NCBI GenBank assembly: GCA_012520375.1
Contig: JAAYOH010000015.1
Span: forward strand, 31,239 to 95,238
DNA: 64,000 nucleotides
Reading direction: 5' to 3'
Source: Clostridiales bacterium
GTDB taxonomy: Bacteria > Bacillota > Clostridia > Christensenellales > Aristaeellaceae
Below the pieces are notes generated by a model. The model was given only the letters and a program-made list of their open reading frames with translations. It was not told the DNA's origin and did no database searches. The position numbers were made by a program, and so were the translations under genes. Positions 9,727 through 15,456 of the stretch are shown piece by piece. Every line of letters starts with the position of its first letter. Position 1 is the first letter of the stretch.

Positions 9727-9797
9727 AATAACAGGACGCGCTGCAGGGCATTTTCGCGCAGGCTCTGCTGCAGATTTGGAAAGTGGGGAGTAACAGC

Positions 9798-11588
9798 ATG
9801 AAGATCACCAACGACATCAGATACATCGGTGTAAACGACCATCGGATCGACCTGTTTGAAGGTCAGTATATCGTACCCAACGGCATGGCTTATAATTCCT
9901 ACGCCATCCTTGACGAGAAGACCGCTATCGTAGACACCGTGGATAAAAAGTTTACCCACGAGTGGCTGGACAACATCGAAAAAACCCTGGGCACACGAAA
10001 GCCCGATTATCTGATCGTGCAGCATATGGAGCCTGACCATGCCGCCAACATCGCTAGGTTCCTGGAAGTCTATCCGGAAGCCACCGTTGTTTCCTCCAAC
10101 AAGGCATTTGCCATGATGAAGAACTTCTTTGGCGAGGACTACGCCCATCGCCGTATCGTCGTGGGGGAGTCGGACACACTTTCTCTGGGCAACCATACCC
10201 TTACCTTCTTCACCGCGCCCATGGTACACTGGCCGGAAGTCATGGTCACCTATGATCCCTTCGATAAGGCGCTCTTCTCCGCCGATGCCTTCGGCAAGTT
10301 CGGCGCTTTGGATGTGGAAGAAGACTGGGCATGTGAGGCGCGCCGCTATTACTTCGGCATCGTCGGCAAGTACGGCCAGCAGGTGCAAGCGCTTTTGAAG
10401 AAGGCCGCCGATCTTGATATCCAGACGATCTGCCCCGCTCACGGCCCTGTGTTGAGCGAAAACCTGGGTTATTACATCAATCTCTACGATATTTGGTCCT
10501 CTTACCGCGTGGAATCAGAAGGCATCATGGTCGCTTATACCTCCGTATATGGTCATACCAAGACCGCCGTGGAACTTCTGACACAGAAGCTGAAAGAAAA
10601 GGGCTGCCCCAAAGTCGTGGTCCAGGACCTTGCCCGCTGTGACATGGCAGAAGCCGTTGAAGACGCCTTCCGCTATGGAAAGCTGGTACTGGCAACCACC
10701 ACCTACAACGCCGATGTCTTCCCCTTCATGAGGGAGTTCATCACCCACCTGACCGAGCGCAATTTCCGCAACCGCACCATCGGGTTGATGGAAAACGGTT
10801 CCTGGGCTCCCCTTGCCGCCAAAGTCATGCGCGGCATGCTGGCTGAAAGCAAAAACCTGACCTTCACAGAAACCACCGTTCGCATTTTGTCCGCCTTGAA
10901 CGACGACAGCCGCGCCCAGATCGAAAATATGGCCAACGAGCTCTGCCGGGATTATCTGGCCCAGCAGGACGCCACCGCCAACAAAAATGACATGAAAGCC
11001 CTGTTCAATATCGGCTACGGCCTGTACGTAGTCACCTCCAACGACGGCAAGAAGGACAACGGCCTGATTGTCAACGCTGTAACCCAATTGACAGACGCGC
11101 CCAACCGCGTGGCCGTGACCATCAACAAACAGAACTATTCCCATCACGTGATCAAGCAGACCGGCATCATGAACGTGAACTGCCTGGATACCACGGCTCC
11201 CTTCTCCCTTTTCCAAACCTATGGTTTCCAGAGCGGCCGCTCCGTAGACAAGTTTGCGGGCGCCGAGGTGCTCAGAAGCGACAACGGCCTGGTGTTCCTG
11301 CCCCGCCACATCAACTCCTTCTTGTCCCTGAAGGTGGAAGAGTATATAGATCTGGACACCCACGGCATATTCATCTGCACCGTGACCGAGTCCCGGGTAA
11401 TCTCCGGAAACGAGACCATGACGTACACCTACTATCAACACAATGTGAAGCCCAAGCCCAAGACCGAAGGCAAGAAGGGCTACGTATGCCGGGTGTGCGG
11501 TTGGATCTATGAGGGTGAACCCCTGCCGGACGACATCATCTGTCCCCTGTGCAAGCACGGCGCGGCAGATTTTGAGCCCATCCAATAG
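9798..11588 (+). CDS. fprA: Flavodiiron protein fused to flavin reductase-like and rubredoxin domains
   Basis: A 596-residue cytoplasmic oxygen (or NO) reductase. The beta-lactamase-like diiron domain (1 to about 245) has ligands H76, E78, D80, H144, D163 and H215. A flavodoxin domain follows (VAYTSVYGHTKTA near 246-257), then a flavin reductase-like split-barrel (about 398-545), then a C-terminal rubredoxin with C564, C567, C582 and C585. The order suggests a self-contained chain from NAD(P)H or a reductase through flavin and rubredoxin iron to the diiron site. Plain FprA has only the first two domains. GGGGAG lies 7 nt before the ATG. The gene is monocistronic, between its own promoter and a strong terminator. 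Confidence 0.95.
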   Translation: MKITNDIRYIGVNDHRIDLFEGQYIVPNGMAYNSYAILDEKTAIVDTVDKKFTHEWLDNIEKTLGTRKPDYLIVQHMEPDHAANIARFLEVYPEATVVSSNKAFAMMKNFFGEDYAHRRIVVGESDTLSLGNHTLTFFTAPMVHWPEVMVTYDPFDKALFSADAFGKFGALDVEEDWACEARRYYFGIVGKYGQQVQALLKKAADLDIQTICPAHGPVLSENLGYYINLYDIWSSYRVESEGIMVAYTSVYGHTKTAVELLTQKLKEKGCPKVVVQDLARCDMAEAVEDAFRYGKLVLATTTYNADVFPFMREFITHLTERNFRNRTIGLMENGSWAPLAAKVMRGMLAESKNLTFTETTVRILSALNDDSRAQIENMANELCRDYLAQQDATANKNDMKALFNIGYGLYVVTSNDGKKDNGLIVNAVTQLTDAPNRVAVTINKQNYSHHVIKQTGIMNVNCLDTTAPFSLFQTYGFQSGRSVDKFAGAEVLRSDNGLVFLPRHINSFLSLKVEEYIDLDTHGIFICTVTESRVISGNETMTYTYYQHNVKPKPKTEGKKGYVCRVCGWIYEGEPLPDDIICPLCKHGAADFEPIQ

Positions 11589-11618
11589 TTTCGGCAGAAA
11601 ACTTGCACGATGTAAGCA

Positions 11619-11652
11619 TCAAGGCGCGGTGAAGATTGCGCCTTGATTTTTT
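11619..11652 (+). terminator. Intrinsic terminator after the flavodiiron gene
   Basis: TCAAGGCGC (11619-11627) pairs with GCGCCTTGA (11638-11646), followed by TTTTTT. It lies 30 nt after the stop codon. Confidence 0.92.
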
Positions 11653-11829: not shown

Positions 11830-11870
11830 GTGATGTCATCACAGAAGGGCAGTTGGTATTCAGGTATAAT
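11830..11870 (+). promoter_or_regulatory. trxA promoter with class-II-type Crp/Fnr palindrome
   Basis: A perfect 13-bp palindrome, GTGATGTCATCAC (11830-11842), is followed by exactly 22 nt and then TATAAT (11865-11870). No recognisable -35 exists, because the palindrome occupies that place, centred near -41. This is the geometry of activation by Crp/Fnr proteins. The same arrangement with the same 22-nt spacing occurs before the double-rubredoxin gene, and a Crp/Fnr gene lies between them. Confidence 0.7.
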
Positions 11871-11901
11871 GAGGCCATAAAAACATGAGGAGGATGTAAA
11901 A

Positions 11902-12207
11902 ATGTCTGCCATCAATATCGATAAAAACAATTTCCAGAATGAAGTTATGAATTCCGACAAGCCCGTCCTTCTGGACTTCTGGGCGCCTTGGTGCGGTCCT
12001 TGCCGTATGGTGATCCCCATCATAGAAGAAATCGCCAGGGAGCGTTCGGATATCAAGGTTGGCAAAGTCAATGTAGATGAACAGCCCGAGCTGGCAAGCC
12101 AGTTTGGCGTCATGAGCATCCCTACCCTGGTTGTCATGAAAGACGGCAAGATCACCAATCAGTCCATGGGCGCCAAACCCAAGAATGCGATCCTTGCAAT
12201 GCTGTAA
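11902..12207 (+). CDS. trxA: Thioredoxin
   Basis: A 101-residue thioredoxin, a general dithiol-disulfide carrier. It has the active site WAPWCGPCRM with C31 and C34, and the cis-proline loop MSIPTLVVMKDG. The C-terminal segment is slightly short but complete. AGGAGG lies before the ATG. It stands alone between a putative Crp/Fnr-activated promoter and a terminator shared with the convergent regulator gene, which places it in the oxygen-response island. Confidence 0.96.
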   Translation: MSAINIDKNNFQNEVMNSDKPVLLDFWAPWCGPCRMVIPIIEEIARERSDIKVGKVNVDEQPELASQFGVMSIPTLVVMKDGKITNQSMGAKPKNAILAML

Positions 12208-12216
12208 AACGTAATA

Positions 12217-12261
12217 AAAGAAGCCCACCTCGTACGAGAGGATGAGGCGGGCTTCTTCTTT
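12217..12261. terminator. Bidirectional terminator between trxA and the Crp/Fnr gene
   Basis: AAGAAGCCC and GGGCTTCTT flank a CCTC/GAGG-containing inner stem, with T-rich tails on both strands (TTCTTT on plus, TTTTATT on minus). Confidence 0.85.
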
Positions 12262-12372
12262 AACATTGTCCAATGAAACAAGAGGGCTCCGGATAAAAAG
12301 GCGGAAATCAGCAAAGCGGAAACATCCAATTTGGGCAAAACGCACGGATCGGTCAAGAAGCATGGTATGGCC

Positions 12373-13047
12373 TCATCCATCCCCAAGCGCCTCCAGTTTC
12401 TCTGCATCAAGGATTGTTACCATGCCGCGAGAAAGCTTTACCATGCCTTCGTTCTGGAAGTAGCGAAGCATCCGGGTTATGACCTCCCGGTGAGTACCCA
12501 GATGATTGGCGATGATCTCATGGGTGATCTTGATTTCATTTGTTCCTTCAATGGACGCCTCTTCCAACAGGAAAGCAGCGACGCGCTTGTCAAGGCTCTT
12601 CCACATGATCTGCTCCACCAGCCACATGACATCGGAAAAGCGGGTAGCCATCAATTCATTGGTGTAATTAGCCACCGGCGCGGACTCTTCCATGATGCTC
12701 TTATACGTTTCCGCAGGAATAACCCAAAGCTCCGTATCCTTTTCCGCCTCGATCGTCACGTCGAACTGTATGGAACGAATCATACAGGATGCGGTCATCA
12801 GACACATGTCCACATCAAACAGCCTGTAAATGGTGATCTCGCGCCCCTCTTCGGAAAGAATATAAGCCCGAAGCTGACCGGTTTTAACCAGGACCAGACC
12901 GATGCAGTCCATGCTGCCGCTGTGAATGACCGATCCTTTCTCAATCGTTCGGGTGAGCAGTGAAGCAAGAATACGGTCTTTCTGCCCGTCAGTCAATTTG
13001 CTCCAAACAGGAAAATAGCTTACAAAATCCATGTTTGCGCCTCTCAT
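12373..13047 (-). CDS. Crp/Fnr-family transcription regulator
   Basis: A 224-residue regulator with an N-terminal cyclic-nucleotide-binding-like beta-roll (IEKGSVIHSGSMDCIGLVLVKTGQLRAY) and a C-terminal winged HTH. The recognition region is NHLGTHREVITRMLRYFQ, where HREVxTR matches the E-R arrangement that reads GTGA-type half sites. Cysteines in MDCIGL and CLMTASCM could be redox sensors, but there is no Fnr-type four-cysteine cluster motif. I chose the ATG at 13047 (GGGGGAG 7-8 nt upstream). It diverges from the rubrerythrin operon and converges on trxA, whose promoters both carry candidate operators. Confidence 0.92.
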   Translation of the reverse strand: MRGANMDFVSYFPVWSKLTDGQKDRILASLLTRTIEKGSVIHSGSMDCIGLVLVKTGQLRAYILSEEGREITIYRLFDVDMCLMTASCMIRSIQFDVTIEAEKDTELWVIPAETYKSIMEESAPVANYTNELMATRFSDVMWLVEQIMWKSLDKRVAAFLLEEASIEGTNEIKITHEIIANHLGTHREVITRMLRYFQNEGMVKLSRGMVTILDAEKLEALGDG

Positions 13048-13072
13048 TTTGCTACTCCCCCCTTTGAATGCA

Positions 13073-13101
13073 ATTGTAGCTTTGTTCAGGACATCTGTCA
13101 A
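13073..13101 (-). promoter_or_regulatory. Promoter of the Crp/Fnr gene
   Basis: TTGACA, a 17-nt spacer and TACAAT on the minus strand. Its -35 box is back to back with that of the divergent rubrerythrin promoter, 9 nt apart. Confidence 0.85.
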
Positions 13102-13110
13102 CAATTTTCA

Positions 13111-13139
13111 TTGACTTACGGCACGAAGCGGTTTATAAT
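13111..13139 (+). promoter_or_regulatory. Upstream (P1) promoter of the rubrerythrin operon
   Basis: TTGACT (13111-13116), a 17-nt spacer and TATAAT (13134-13139). It is close to consensus, so it should give basal expression. The Crp/Fnr-like palindrome lies about 35 nt downstream of its start site. Confidence 0.85.
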
Positions 13140-13179
13140 GAACAAAGGTAGCATCATTGTAGCGGTCGTTTCCGACTGG

Positions 13180-13220
13180 GTGATGATATCACGGAAGGCT
13201 GATCTATGCTGTGATATCAT
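13180..13220 (+). promoter_or_regulatory. Crp/Fnr-like operator with a second (P2) promoter
   Basis: GTGATGATATCAC (13180-13192) is followed by exactly 22 nt and TATCAT (13215-13220), a 5/6 match to a -10 box. This duplicates the trxA arrangement. The P2 -10 overlaps another palindromic stretch, GTGATATCAT (13211-13220), which could be a second half-conserved site. Activation of P2, or blocking of P1 transcription, are both possible. Confidence 0.6.
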
Positions 13221-13244: not shown

Positions 13245-13910
13245 ATGAAACAAATGGTATGCTCCATATGTTCCTATGTCTATGACGAAGCAAAGGGCAT
13301 CCCGGAAGCTGGTATCGCTCCCGGTACCCGGTGGGAGGAACTTCCGGCGGATTGGATCTGCCCGTTGTGCGGTGCAGGCAAGGATGCTTTCCATGAAAAG
13401 CAGGCAGCGCCTTCAGCAGCTGAGAAACAGCTGCCGGAAAAGCCCCATGTAGATATGGAATTGTCCGCCATGGAAATGAGCATCATCTGTTCCAATCTGG
13501 CCCGCGGATGTGAAAAGCAGTATTTGCCCCAGCAGGAAAAAGCTTTCCGTCAGCTTGCGGATTTCTTCCGCTCAAAAGCGGAGCCGGTAGAGGAGCCCAG
13601 CGGTCAAAAACTGCTCGAGTTGGTAGAAAAGGATCTGACCCTTGGGTATCCATACGCCAATGCCATCGCTTCCCGGAAGCCGGATCGCGGTGCATTGCGC
13701 AGCCTGGTTTGGAGCGAGCGGGCAACCCGGATGCTCCAGTCGCTTTTGACCCGATACAAAGCAGAGGGCGAAAAGATGCTAGAAAACACCGGCGTTTATC
13801 TTTGCACCATCTGCGGCTTTCTTTATTTGGGAGATGCCGCGCCCGAAATCTGTCCTGTGTGCAAGGTCCCCAGCTGGAAATTTGAAAGAGTAGAAGGGAG
13901 GGTGTCGTGA
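13245..13910 (+). CDS. Double-rubredoxin protein with helical middle domain
   Basis: A 221-residue protein. A rubredoxin domain (about 1-50; C6, C9, C39, C42; [13 protein letters not shown]) is followed by about 120 helical residues of unrecognised type (70-185). It ends in a second, shortened rubredoxin-like knuckle (C187, C190, C203, C206; [20 protein letters not shown]), the style seen at the C-terminus of rubrerythrins. It lacks the diiron four-helix motifs, so it is probably an electron carrier or adaptor. It is the first gene of the operon and overlaps the rubrerythrin fusion by 4 nt (GTGA), so a functional partnership is likely. The middle domain remains unidentified. Confidence 0.85.
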
Positions 13911-15064
13911 TCATGGCGGATCGATATGCAGTCAGAAATCTACGCCTGTGCACCAAAGATTGCTTGTGTCTGTATGTGTGTCCAACCGGGGCCACAGACA
14001 CAGAGAACAGCATCATTGACGAAAGCAAGTGTATCGGATGCGGCGTATGTGCCGATTCCTGTCCTTCCGGCGCCATCTCCATGATGCCGAAGAAGCTTCC
14101 CCCCCAGCAACCAAAAGATGAGGCCGCTGTGGAAGCTCTGCGTGGGCTCATCCAAAGCAAAGCTGCTGCGGAATCCGTTGCGGCTCAGATGCCGGGCATC
14201 CTGAATGTGGCAGCAGAAAAATCTTCCCGGCTGATGGCGGAAGATCTGTGCCGCGAAGCCGGCTTCATGCTTCCCCAAAGCGGCAACACCAGAGCCTTTC
14301 TTGAAAAGATCAAGTCCTATCCCGGCATCCCGGTGGATGTCGTTGAAACCCTGCTCGCTACCATACAATTCAACGAGGAAACGGAGGAAATGATGATGGA
14401 AAAGTGGAAGTGTACGGTTTGCGGTTATGTTCATGAAGGCCCCATGACCCCTGATTTCAAGTGTCCCATTTGCAAGCAGGGCCCTGACAAGTTCGTGAAG
14501 ATCGAGGAGGCTGCAGCAACGCCTGTGAAGAATCCTTTTGCAGGCACCAAGACCGAGAAGAACCTGTGGGAAGCCTTCGCCGGTGAATCCCAGGCCCGCA
14601 ACAAGTACGCCTATTTCGCTTCCGTCGCCAAGGAGGCAGGCTTTGAGCAGATCGCCGCATTGTTCCTGCAGACTGCCGCCAATGAAATGGAGCACGCCAA
14701 GCTTTGGTTCAAGGCGTTGGGCGAACTGGGCGACACCGCTGAAAACCTGCTGAGCGCCGCCGAAGGCGAAAACTACGAGTGGACCGAAATGTATGCCACC
14801 TTCGCCAAAGAAGCCGACGAAGAAGGTTTCCATGAGCTGGCAGAACAGTTCCGCGGCGTTGCCGCCGTCGAAAAGGCCCATGAGGAGCGTTACCGCAAGC
14901 TGCTCCACAATGTGGAGACAAAGCAGGTCTTCGAAAAGAGCGGCGTAACCCTATGGGAGTGTCGGAATTGTGGCCATTTGGCAATGGGCGTCAAGGCTCC
15001 CGAAGTGTGCCCCGTCTGCTTCTATCCCCAAGCCCATTTTGAAGTTCGTGCTGAAAATTATTAA
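13907..15064 (+). CDS. Ferredoxin-rubredoxin-rubrerythrin-rubredoxin fusion
   Basis: A 385-residue peroxide reductase with unusual wiring. Residues 1-60 hold two 4Fe-4S motifs (C15, C19, C21, C25, an altered spacing; C42, C45, C48, C52, canonical). A helical linker (about 70-165) is followed by a rubredoxin (C169, C172, C186, C189). The rubrerythrin diiron bundle has E227 in [11 protein letters not shown]260/H263 in [10 protein letters not shown]302/E305 in KEADEEGFH and E322/H325 in [10 protein letters not shown]-terminal rubredoxin follows (C352, C355, C368, C371). Ordinary rubrerythrin has one rubredoxin and no ferredoxin. The chain could pass electrons from ferredoxin straight to peroxide. 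The start is the overlapping GTG at 13907 or an ATG at 13913; GGGAGG favours the former. Confidence 0.9.
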
Positions 15065-15078
15065 GGAGGATGATACAC

Positions 15079-15456
15079 ATGAAATCCAAGTTCTACATCT
15101 GCCGTATATGCGGCAACCTGATCGGCATGGTCCATGACACCGGGGTCCCTGTTGTCTGCTGTGGCAAAAAAATGGAAGCCCTCGTTCCCAACACCGTGGA
15201 AGCCAGCGGCGAGAAGCATCTGCCTGTGGTCACCGTGGAAGACGGCGCGATCGCTGTTAAAGTGGGCAGCGAAAACCATCCCATGGTCCCGGAGCACTTC
15301 ATCGAGTGGGTCTATCTTGAGACTGAAAACGGCGGCCAGCGCAAGGCGCTCAAGCCCGGTGACGAGCCTGCTGTCTCCTTCTGCCTGGGCGATGACAAGG
15401 CTGTTGCCGTGTACGCATACTGCAACCTCCACGGTTTGTGGATGACAAAGATCTGA
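15079..15456 (+). CDS. dfx: Desulfoferrodoxin-type superoxide reductase
   Basis: A 125-residue two-iron superoxide reductase, which converts superoxide to peroxide without releasing oxygen. The N-terminal desulforedoxin centre has C8, C11, C27 and C28. The catalytic centre has H47 (GEKHLPVV, with E45 and K46), H67, H73, C115 and H118 (YCNLHGLW). I chose the ATG at 15079 because AAGGAGG abuts the earlier in-frame ATG at 15070. It follows the rubrerythrin fusion by 14 nt, so peroxide made here can be removed by its operon partner. Confidence 0.97.
   Translation: MKSKFYICRICGNLIGMVHDTGVPVVCCGKKMEALVPNTVEASGEKHLPVVTVEDGAIAVKVGSENHPMVPEHFIEWVYLETENGGQRKALKPGDEPAVSFCLGDDKAVAVYAYCNLHGLWMTKI

Follow-up and report, generated by a model that had tools for sequence, protein, structure and literature searches.

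Within a 64,000-nucleotide (nt) stretch of contig JAAYOH010000015.1 from a Clostridiales bacterium of the Aristaeellaceae (assembly GCA_012520375.1), hereafter the window, a gene for a Crp/Fnr-family regulator lies between the thioredoxin gene trxA and an operon encoding rubredoxin, rubrerythrin and desulfoferrodoxin proteins. We consider it rather probable that this three-cysteine protein acts as a class II activator of trxA and of the rubrerythrin operon. It is predicted to bind a 13-base-pair (bp) palindrome, GTGAY-N3-RTCAC, located 22 nt before -10 boxes that have no -35 box, and to act probably on thiol oxidation.

Two promoters of class II layout flank the regulator gene

Class II activators of the Crp/Fnr superfamily sit near position -41 and replace the -35 box, and a promoter-side half-site 22 nt from the -10 box is taken as the usual class II distance. 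The same layout is seen here at two promoters. The predicted activator site of trxA, GTGATGTCATCAC (GTGA-N5-TCAC; 11830..11842, + strand), precedes a TATAAT -10 box (11865..11870, +) by 22 nt, and its centre at 11836 corresponds to about -41 when the start is assumed to lie 7 nt past the -10 box. The site predicted for the rubredoxin-rubrerythrin-desulfoferrodoxin operon, GTGATGATATCAC (GTGA-N5-TCAC; 13180..13192, +), stands 22 nt before TATCAT (13215..13220, +), an extended -10 box preceded by TGA. A -35 box was sought 15-19 nt before both -10 boxes, and the best hexamer matched TTGACA at no more than 2/6 positions. The regulator gene, on the minus strand between the two sites, has a promoter-like site of its own, TTGACA-17-TACAAT (13073..13101, -). 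The window sequence thus bears out what a first-pass annotation had described, namely two odd-length palindromes of 13 bp, identical 22-nt gaps to the -10 boxes, missing -35 boxes, and a Crp/Fnr gene with its own promoter between the sites.

A strong promoter-like site, TTGACT-17-TATAAT (11/12; 13111-13139, +), was also observed upstream of the second palindrome, facing the rubredoxin operon and back to back with the regulator's own promoter. It may be a second, regulator-independent promoter of this operon.

The motif in the source genome

The source assembly (2.29 Mb, 106 contigs, 95% complete) contains the perfect pattern GTGATNNNATCAC in two places only, which are the two promoters of the window, and the backward control of this pattern gave no match. 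When one mismatch was allowed, the window contained 6 matches against a shuffle mean of 1.61 (standard deviation 1.25), and none of 100 shuffles reached 6. Simple arithmetic puts the chance expectation for 2.29 Mb at about two perfect matches, so that the count alone is not special and the argument rests on place and phase: the two perfect sites are 1.35 kb apart, flank the regulator gene and have the same phase to a -10 box. A looser pattern, GTGANNNNNTCACN{21,23}TANNNT, added two sites. One, on contig C58 and with the inner pair broken, precedes a DUF6132 gene and a flavoprotein read as CoA-disulfide-reductase-like; the other, on contig C98, precedes a redoxin read as TlpA-like. This genome-wide search had been set beforehand as a check on the motif. 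Since the perfect pattern was confined to the two promoters and the looser phased sites lie at redox genes, the small dedicated regulon suggested from the window fits.

A 5-bp spacer and a 22-nt phase recur in relatives

Other Crp/Fnr sites have, to our knowledge, 14-bp cores. Spacer length was counted in 607 kb around homologues of the regulator, at 80 loci drawn from at least 560 confirmed relatives. GTGA-N5-TCAC was found 92 times, in 63 of the 80 loci, while spacers of 2, 3, 4, 6, 7, 8, 9 and 10 bp gave 2, 7, 1, 6, 2, 6, 19 and 2 sites, respectively. The 19 matches with a 9-bp spacer came from 19 loci, and the strings shown differ, apart from two forms that are alike. A second set of 44 loci gave 24 N5 sites in 20 loci and 0-4 sites for any other spacer (1 for N6). 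At least two loci are shared by the sets (L106/L270 and L226/L248, with the same sites), which are therefore not fully independent. These counts (N5 against N6, 92 to 6 and 24 to 1) rule out the 14-bp Crp-type site GTGA-N6-TCAC and uphold the earlier statement that the 13-bp length departs from the Crp core. From 87 strict sites, the flank consensus was TnTGTGAY-NNN-RTCAC-(A/G)GAA.

In the 80-locus set, 74 of the N5 sites were followed by TATNNT at 22 nt and 5 at 21 nt, none had it at 23 nt, and no other distance occurred more than 7 times; with identical stretches counted once, 65 sites remained at 22 nt. Only 1 of the 74 promoters at exactly 22 nt had a -35 hexamer with at least 4/6 matches to TTGACA, compared with 11.5% of control positions, a difference partly due to the conserved flank. 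Among phased sites with one mismatch, for which the flank (A/G)G(A/T) was required, all 8 distinct cases (8 of 8) had the altered base at the third position of the far half-site, and no such one-mismatch site was found in a control with the -10 box shifted by 10. The site near -41, the fixed phase to the -10 box and the lack of a -35 box are the features of a class II layout; the fixed phase and the missing -35 boxes support the proposed class II activator position, as far as sequence can indicate it.

Whole genomes were then compared. Homologues of the regulator were detected in 20 of 60 relatives (E <= 0.001) and in 63 of 291 class members (E <= 1e-30), the source genome being counted in both. 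The 63 class members and 12 genomes from the search of relatives made up a set of 75 regulator-bearing genomes, which was set against 75 others that had no homologue at the cut-off. The pattern GTGAYNNNRTCACN{7,37}TATNNT gave 129 + 140 matches with the regulator (backward control, 35 + 32) and 78 + 82 without it (backward control, 38 + 21). Among the 150 matches listed for regulator-bearing genomes, spacings of 21, 22 and 23 nt occurred 14, 34 and 10 times and each other spacing 1-7 times. The histogram for the 150 matches listed from regulator-free genomes was flat (0-9 per spacing), with 15 at 21-23 nt. The difference at 21-23 nt among these listed matches, 58/150 versus 15/150, was significant (Fisher, 7e-9). 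The 22-nt peak thus recurs across the genomes of relatives, and the identical phase noted in the window is not random. A few matches in the regulator-free set (G127, G154) look like true sites, perhaps owing to weaker homologues left in that set. In two further regulator-free genomes (G081, G115), a near-identical string, GTGATAATGTCACCTTGTTAATTATC(T/C)T, occurs at several places; it looks like a repeated element and is unlike this regulon.

Genes downstream of the phased sites

A script picked the downstream frame of 94 phased sites, which come from 61 of the 80 loci, by start codon, likeness to a ribosome-binding site and length, so single choices may be wrong. Forty-eight of these frames, from 44 loci, carry a thioredoxin-type WCxxC motif (one is fused to a reductase), and 3 more are thioredoxin reductase-like. 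The rest comprise 11 membrane proteins read as NapH-like (Pfam gave no match for the representative), 9 short-chain dehydrogenases, 7 rhodaneses and, with 5 members each, ferredoxins and copies of the regulator; of the remaining frames, 2 encode rubredoxin proteins, 2 are doubtful and 2 are singles. Another 71 sites came from genomes of further relatives, 5 of them from G001 and G018; 60 gave a frame, and 20 of these frames had the thioredoxin motif. Pfam scans of representatives from both sets identified peroxiredoxin (AhpC-TSA), thioredoxin reductase-like, DsbD_TM (CcdA-like), OsmC, Sulf_transp, glutaredoxin and flavodoxin proteins, and also DUF1858, DUF4332 and a 6-pyruvoyl-tetrahydropterin synthase family protein. 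Rubrerythrin behind the sites of relatives was identified by reading of the frames.

A phased palindrome was also seen before the regulator gene itself in four Blautia-type loci (L253, L254, L267 and L288, at 3869 +) and in L255 (at 3783 +), which suggests autoregulation in these relatives. The regulator gene of the window has no phased palindrome of its own.

The site before trxA goes with the regulator

To relate site and regulator at one gene, a search for trxA covered 40 regulator-bearing genomes, taken from the 63 of the class sample, and 40 of the 75 regulator-free ones. Matches were obtained in 37 and 36 genomes, respectively, and 30 loci of each kind were returned. A palindrome within 330 nt upstream of trxA was present in 20 of the 30 loci from regulator-bearing genomes and in none of the 30 others (p = 1.4e-8), and it was phased in 19 and 0, respectively; one of the regulator-bearing loci was covered for just 71 nt upstream. 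In 17 of the 30 loci from regulator-bearing genomes, the regulator gene is no more than 1.5 kb away from trxA. At the order level, 9 of 14 homologue-bearing genomes had strict phased sites followed by (A/G)G, against 3 of 46 that lack a close homologue (p = 2.2e-5), a comparison in which the (A/G)G definition was made after seeing the sites and 6 of the 46 genomes have weak homologues.

Several observations weigh against a dedicated activator acting through this site. In the window, the second palindrome sits 3' of the strong promoter-like site, so that another kind of action is possible there. No phased site was found in 19 of the 80 loci, several of which are short, and 10 of the 30 trxA loci from regulator-bearing genomes have no exact site. 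The trxA relatives from regulator-free genomes resemble the query less on the whole and may include paralogues, and the order-level association weakens to 10/14 versus 12/46 (p = 0.004) when the (A/G)G condition is dropped. Some sites precede genes without a clear redox role (short-chain dehydrogenase, 6-pyruvoyl-tetrahydropterin synthase family, DUF4332). Finally, G001 (L075, L099, L219-L222), an 89% complete assembly from the same genus, has four good sites and G018 (L076) has one, and no regulator was detected in these two assemblies by homology or by a profile search that had no positive control among the two.

The regulator and its predicted mode of action

The 219-amino-acid regulator is encoded at 12373..13032 (-), with an ATG at 13032 picked by alignment of homologues. 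PF00027 and PF13545 both scored above their cut-offs and Crp/Fnr structures filled the fold search, which places the protein in the Crp/Fnr superfamily; it is the only PF13545 protein above the cut-off in the source genome (1 of 5 hits at E <= 0.01). Counted from this ATG, its cysteines are Cys43, Cys77 and Cys83 (codons 12904-12906, 12802-12804 and 12784-12786, -), which are C46, C80 and C86 in alignment numbering. All 95 sequences keep C46 and C86, and 94 of them keep C80; all three are present in 80 of 80 relatives from the 80-locus set. The 8 closest sequences all have an aspartate two positions ahead of C80, and the last 136 residues of the regulator contain no cysteine. In the AlphaFold model (mean predicted local distance difference test score, 87.2), C80 is part of a strand and C86 of the short helix next to it on the C-terminal side, a region that we take to correspond to the cyclic-nucleotide pocket of CRP. 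The DNA-binding part carries an Arg-Glu-x3-Arg motif (R185, E186 and R190 in alignment numbering; codons 12487-12489, 12484-12486 and 12472-12474, -) kept in 80 of 80 relatives and in 15 of 15 diverse sequences, that of the window included. The two CRP residues that match its Arg-Glu, 180 and 181, are tied to the G and the A of the half-site in PMC1274295. By its sequence, the motif of the regulator fits the reading of a GTGA half-site. A scan of viral contigs with the regulator found no relative.

In the mechanism that we propose, a dimer of the regulator would bind the 13-bp GTGAY-N3-RTCAC palindromes and, once bound, would activate the two neighbours of its gene, trxA and the rubrerythrin operon. 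The subunit on the promoter-side half-site would keep the usual class II contact with RNA polymerase, and the far half-site would be drawn in by one base pair. Cys43, Cys77 and Cys83 may form the sensor, with oxidation rather than reduction turning the regulator on, which is the least certain step. Thiol oxidation is our first choice of signal, given the conservation of the cysteines and the focus of the targets on thioredoxin.

Genes of the locus

The trxA gene (11902..12207, +) encodes a thioredoxin of 101 amino acids, with TIGR01068 above its cut-off. Directly upstream of it stands a 601-amino-acid fusion of flavodiiron protein, flavin reductase and rubredoxin (9783-11588, +), followed by a terminator-like stem at 11618-11647; in another genome (G002, L042), a gene read from its frame as flavodiiron-like has a phased palindrome of its own. 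On the other side of the regulator, the operon opens with a gene (13245..13910, +) for a protein with an N-terminal rubredoxin domain and a C-terminal rubrerythrin-type rubredoxin domain in Pfam, the middle part having no domain match. Similar proteins are encoded downstream of palindromes in L240, L111 and L045. The next gene (13907..15064, +) encodes a 385-amino-acid rubrerythrin to which, according to domain matches, an N-terminal 4Fe-4S ferredoxin domain and an extra rubredoxin-like domain are fused. The third (15070..15456, +) encodes a desulfoferrodoxin of the superoxide reductase type by domain match; NCBIfam TIGR00320 gave 119.6 bits, below its cut-off of 146.9.

Relation to known regulators

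The closest known protein is that of PDB entry 3DV8 (EUBREC_1222 of Eubacterium rectale), which is 74% identical over the match and superimposes on the model with a root mean square deviation of 1.3 A; the sequence alignment covers 216 residues and includes the three cysteines. For 3DV8 there is a structure only, and no operator, targets or signal were found; a search of open-licence papers returned no mention of EUBREC_1222 and no function for 3DV8, which appears there as a modelling template. CRP and FNR of Escherichia coli share the fold, and CRP has the R-E-x3-R helix and GTGA half-sites of the regulator, but their core is 14 bp long instead of 13. The regulator is neither of the two: the CRP equivalog of NCBIfam gave 34.5 bits against a cut-off of 266 and the operator does not have the 14-bp core, while Fnr gave 33.7 bits against 228, there is no N-terminal cysteine cluster, and the only cysteines are those at 43, 77 and 83. 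CooA was rejected too, as Leu and Thr stand at the positions aligned with its heme ligands, which we take to be Cys75 and His77.

The following comparisons rest on excerpts of the papers cited. HcpR and HcpR2 are Crp/Fnr regulators of redox genes in anaerobes, including Clostridioides difficile. Their sites, wTGTGAnnnnnnTCACAw, wyTTGACnnnnGTCAArw and GTAACnnnnGTTAC, all have 14-bp cores and lie before hcp and frdX (PMC1274295, PMC12915319); on this feature, the length of the published operators (PMC1274295) against the 13 bp found here, HcpR and HcpR2 were rejected as the identity of the regulator. All other Crp/Fnr sites compared from papers had 14-bp cores (PMC1274295, PMC2610375). PgRsp of Porphyromonas gingivalis is a Crp/Fnr protein that has been linked to oxidative stress and for which 3DV8 served as modelling template, but it binds heme, and gel shifts were reported on hmu, bcp and its own promoter (PMC6955866); the terms palindrome and consensus are absent from that text. 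Redox-active cysteines occur in CprK (the pair Cys11-Cys200; site TTAAT-N4-ATTAA; PMC2610375), FixK2 (Cys183) and PrfA (PMC12937710). They lie elsewhere, however, in the N-terminus and DNA-binding domain of CprK and in the DNA-binding domain of FixK2, and oxidation hinders DNA binding by these proteins. CprK was set apart, by its described features (PMC2610375) rather than by alignment, since the regulator has no cysteine before 43 or after 83 and a different motif. OseR (Spx-like) and PerR of C. difficile likewise control oxygen- and peroxide-defence genes in an anaerobe, but they belong to other protein families and are repressors (PMC11481553). Known elements of the present case are therefore the fold, the class II layout and the occurrence of redox-active cysteines in the Crp/Fnr superfamily. 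Searches of open-licence papers, some of which would miss the spelling Crp/Fnr, turned up no description of the 5-bp spacer motif, of this thioredoxin regulon or of the three-cysteine subfamily, which appear to be new to that extent; PMC8457756, for one, contains neither Crp nor FNR nor the words for the motif.

Alternative explanations

Two alternatives keep the regulator, operator and regulon and change the signal. In one, which we hold to be unlikely, the three cysteines, with for example an aspartate, would carry an iron-sulfur cluster, or the pocket would carry heme, and the signal would be oxygen or nitric oxide. That exactly three cysteines are conserved, together with the invariant aspartate before C80, speaks for a cluster, and a three-cysteine [4Fe-4S] cluster has been reported for Bacillus subtilis Fnr (according to a title cited in PMC12937710). 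Heme would be in line with PgRsp, the heme-binding protein modelled on 3DV8 (PMC6955866, excerpts), and with the heme protein CooA being the best match after 3DV8. However, the heme-ligand positions of CooA align with Leu and Thr in the regulator, the N-terminal cysteine cluster of the FNR type is absent, and the final 136 residues are free of cysteine. Reactive sulfur, in which persulfides or polysulfides would attack the conserved cysteines, seems to us less likely still. It is favoured by rhodanese, Sulf_transp (YeeE/YedE type), CoA-disulfide-reductase-like, OsmC and CcdA-like genes behind phased sites, but thioredoxin dominates the targets and the site in the window precedes a rubrerythrin-desulfoferrodoxin operon, both of which fit oxidant stress at least equally.

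The remaining alternatives concern the sites. It is improbable, in our estimate, that the palindromes are real operators at which the regulator represses, or which another DNA-binding protein uses. A protein bound at the second palindrome, 3' of TTGACT-17-TATAAT (13111-13139), could block RNA polymerase, and G001 and G018 have sites without a detected regulator. Nevertheless, a fixed 22 nt to -10 boxes lacking a -35 box is the layout of an activator, no promoter of the 13111-13139 type and of like strength was found close by in four of five rubredoxin/rubrerythrin promoters of relatives, the trxA sites go with the regulator, and the regulator is the sole PF13545 protein above the cut-off in the genome. 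As for two chance palindromes near a regulator gene, the two perfect matches found agree with the roughly two expected in a genome of this size, but the phase histograms, the spacer counts and the trxA association all oppose chance, to which we assign next to no probability; the phase histograms and the trxA test rule it out.

Significance for the regulator family

Extended from the window to the family, our proposal is that a widespread Crp/Fnr subfamily of anaerobic, largely gut-dwelling Clostridia is a dedicated activator of the thioredoxin system. Its 13-bp operator, with a 5-bp spacer, would depart from the 14-bp register of the superfamily, the half-site on the promoter side would stay where class II sites normally have it, and a redox pocket of three cysteines would replace the cyclic-nucleotide pocket. 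We give this broader statement about even chances. The family is large: at least 7999 of 8000 scored protein clusters, among the matches listed, reached E <= 1e-20, and relatives are present in Blautia, Anaerobutyricum and Oscillibacter. If true, the proposal would provide a function, an operator and a ready crystal structure for a very large orphan regulator family, and would explain how a single activator couples thioredoxin to peroxide defence in many anaerobes. With its operator shorter by one bp, the system would also allow a clean test of how the spacing of a Crp-type dimer on DNA can change with its RNA polymerase contact kept. Close relatives of the regulator occur in many gut anaerobes, in which thioredoxin and oxygen-defence genes are likely to be switched on through this palindrome.

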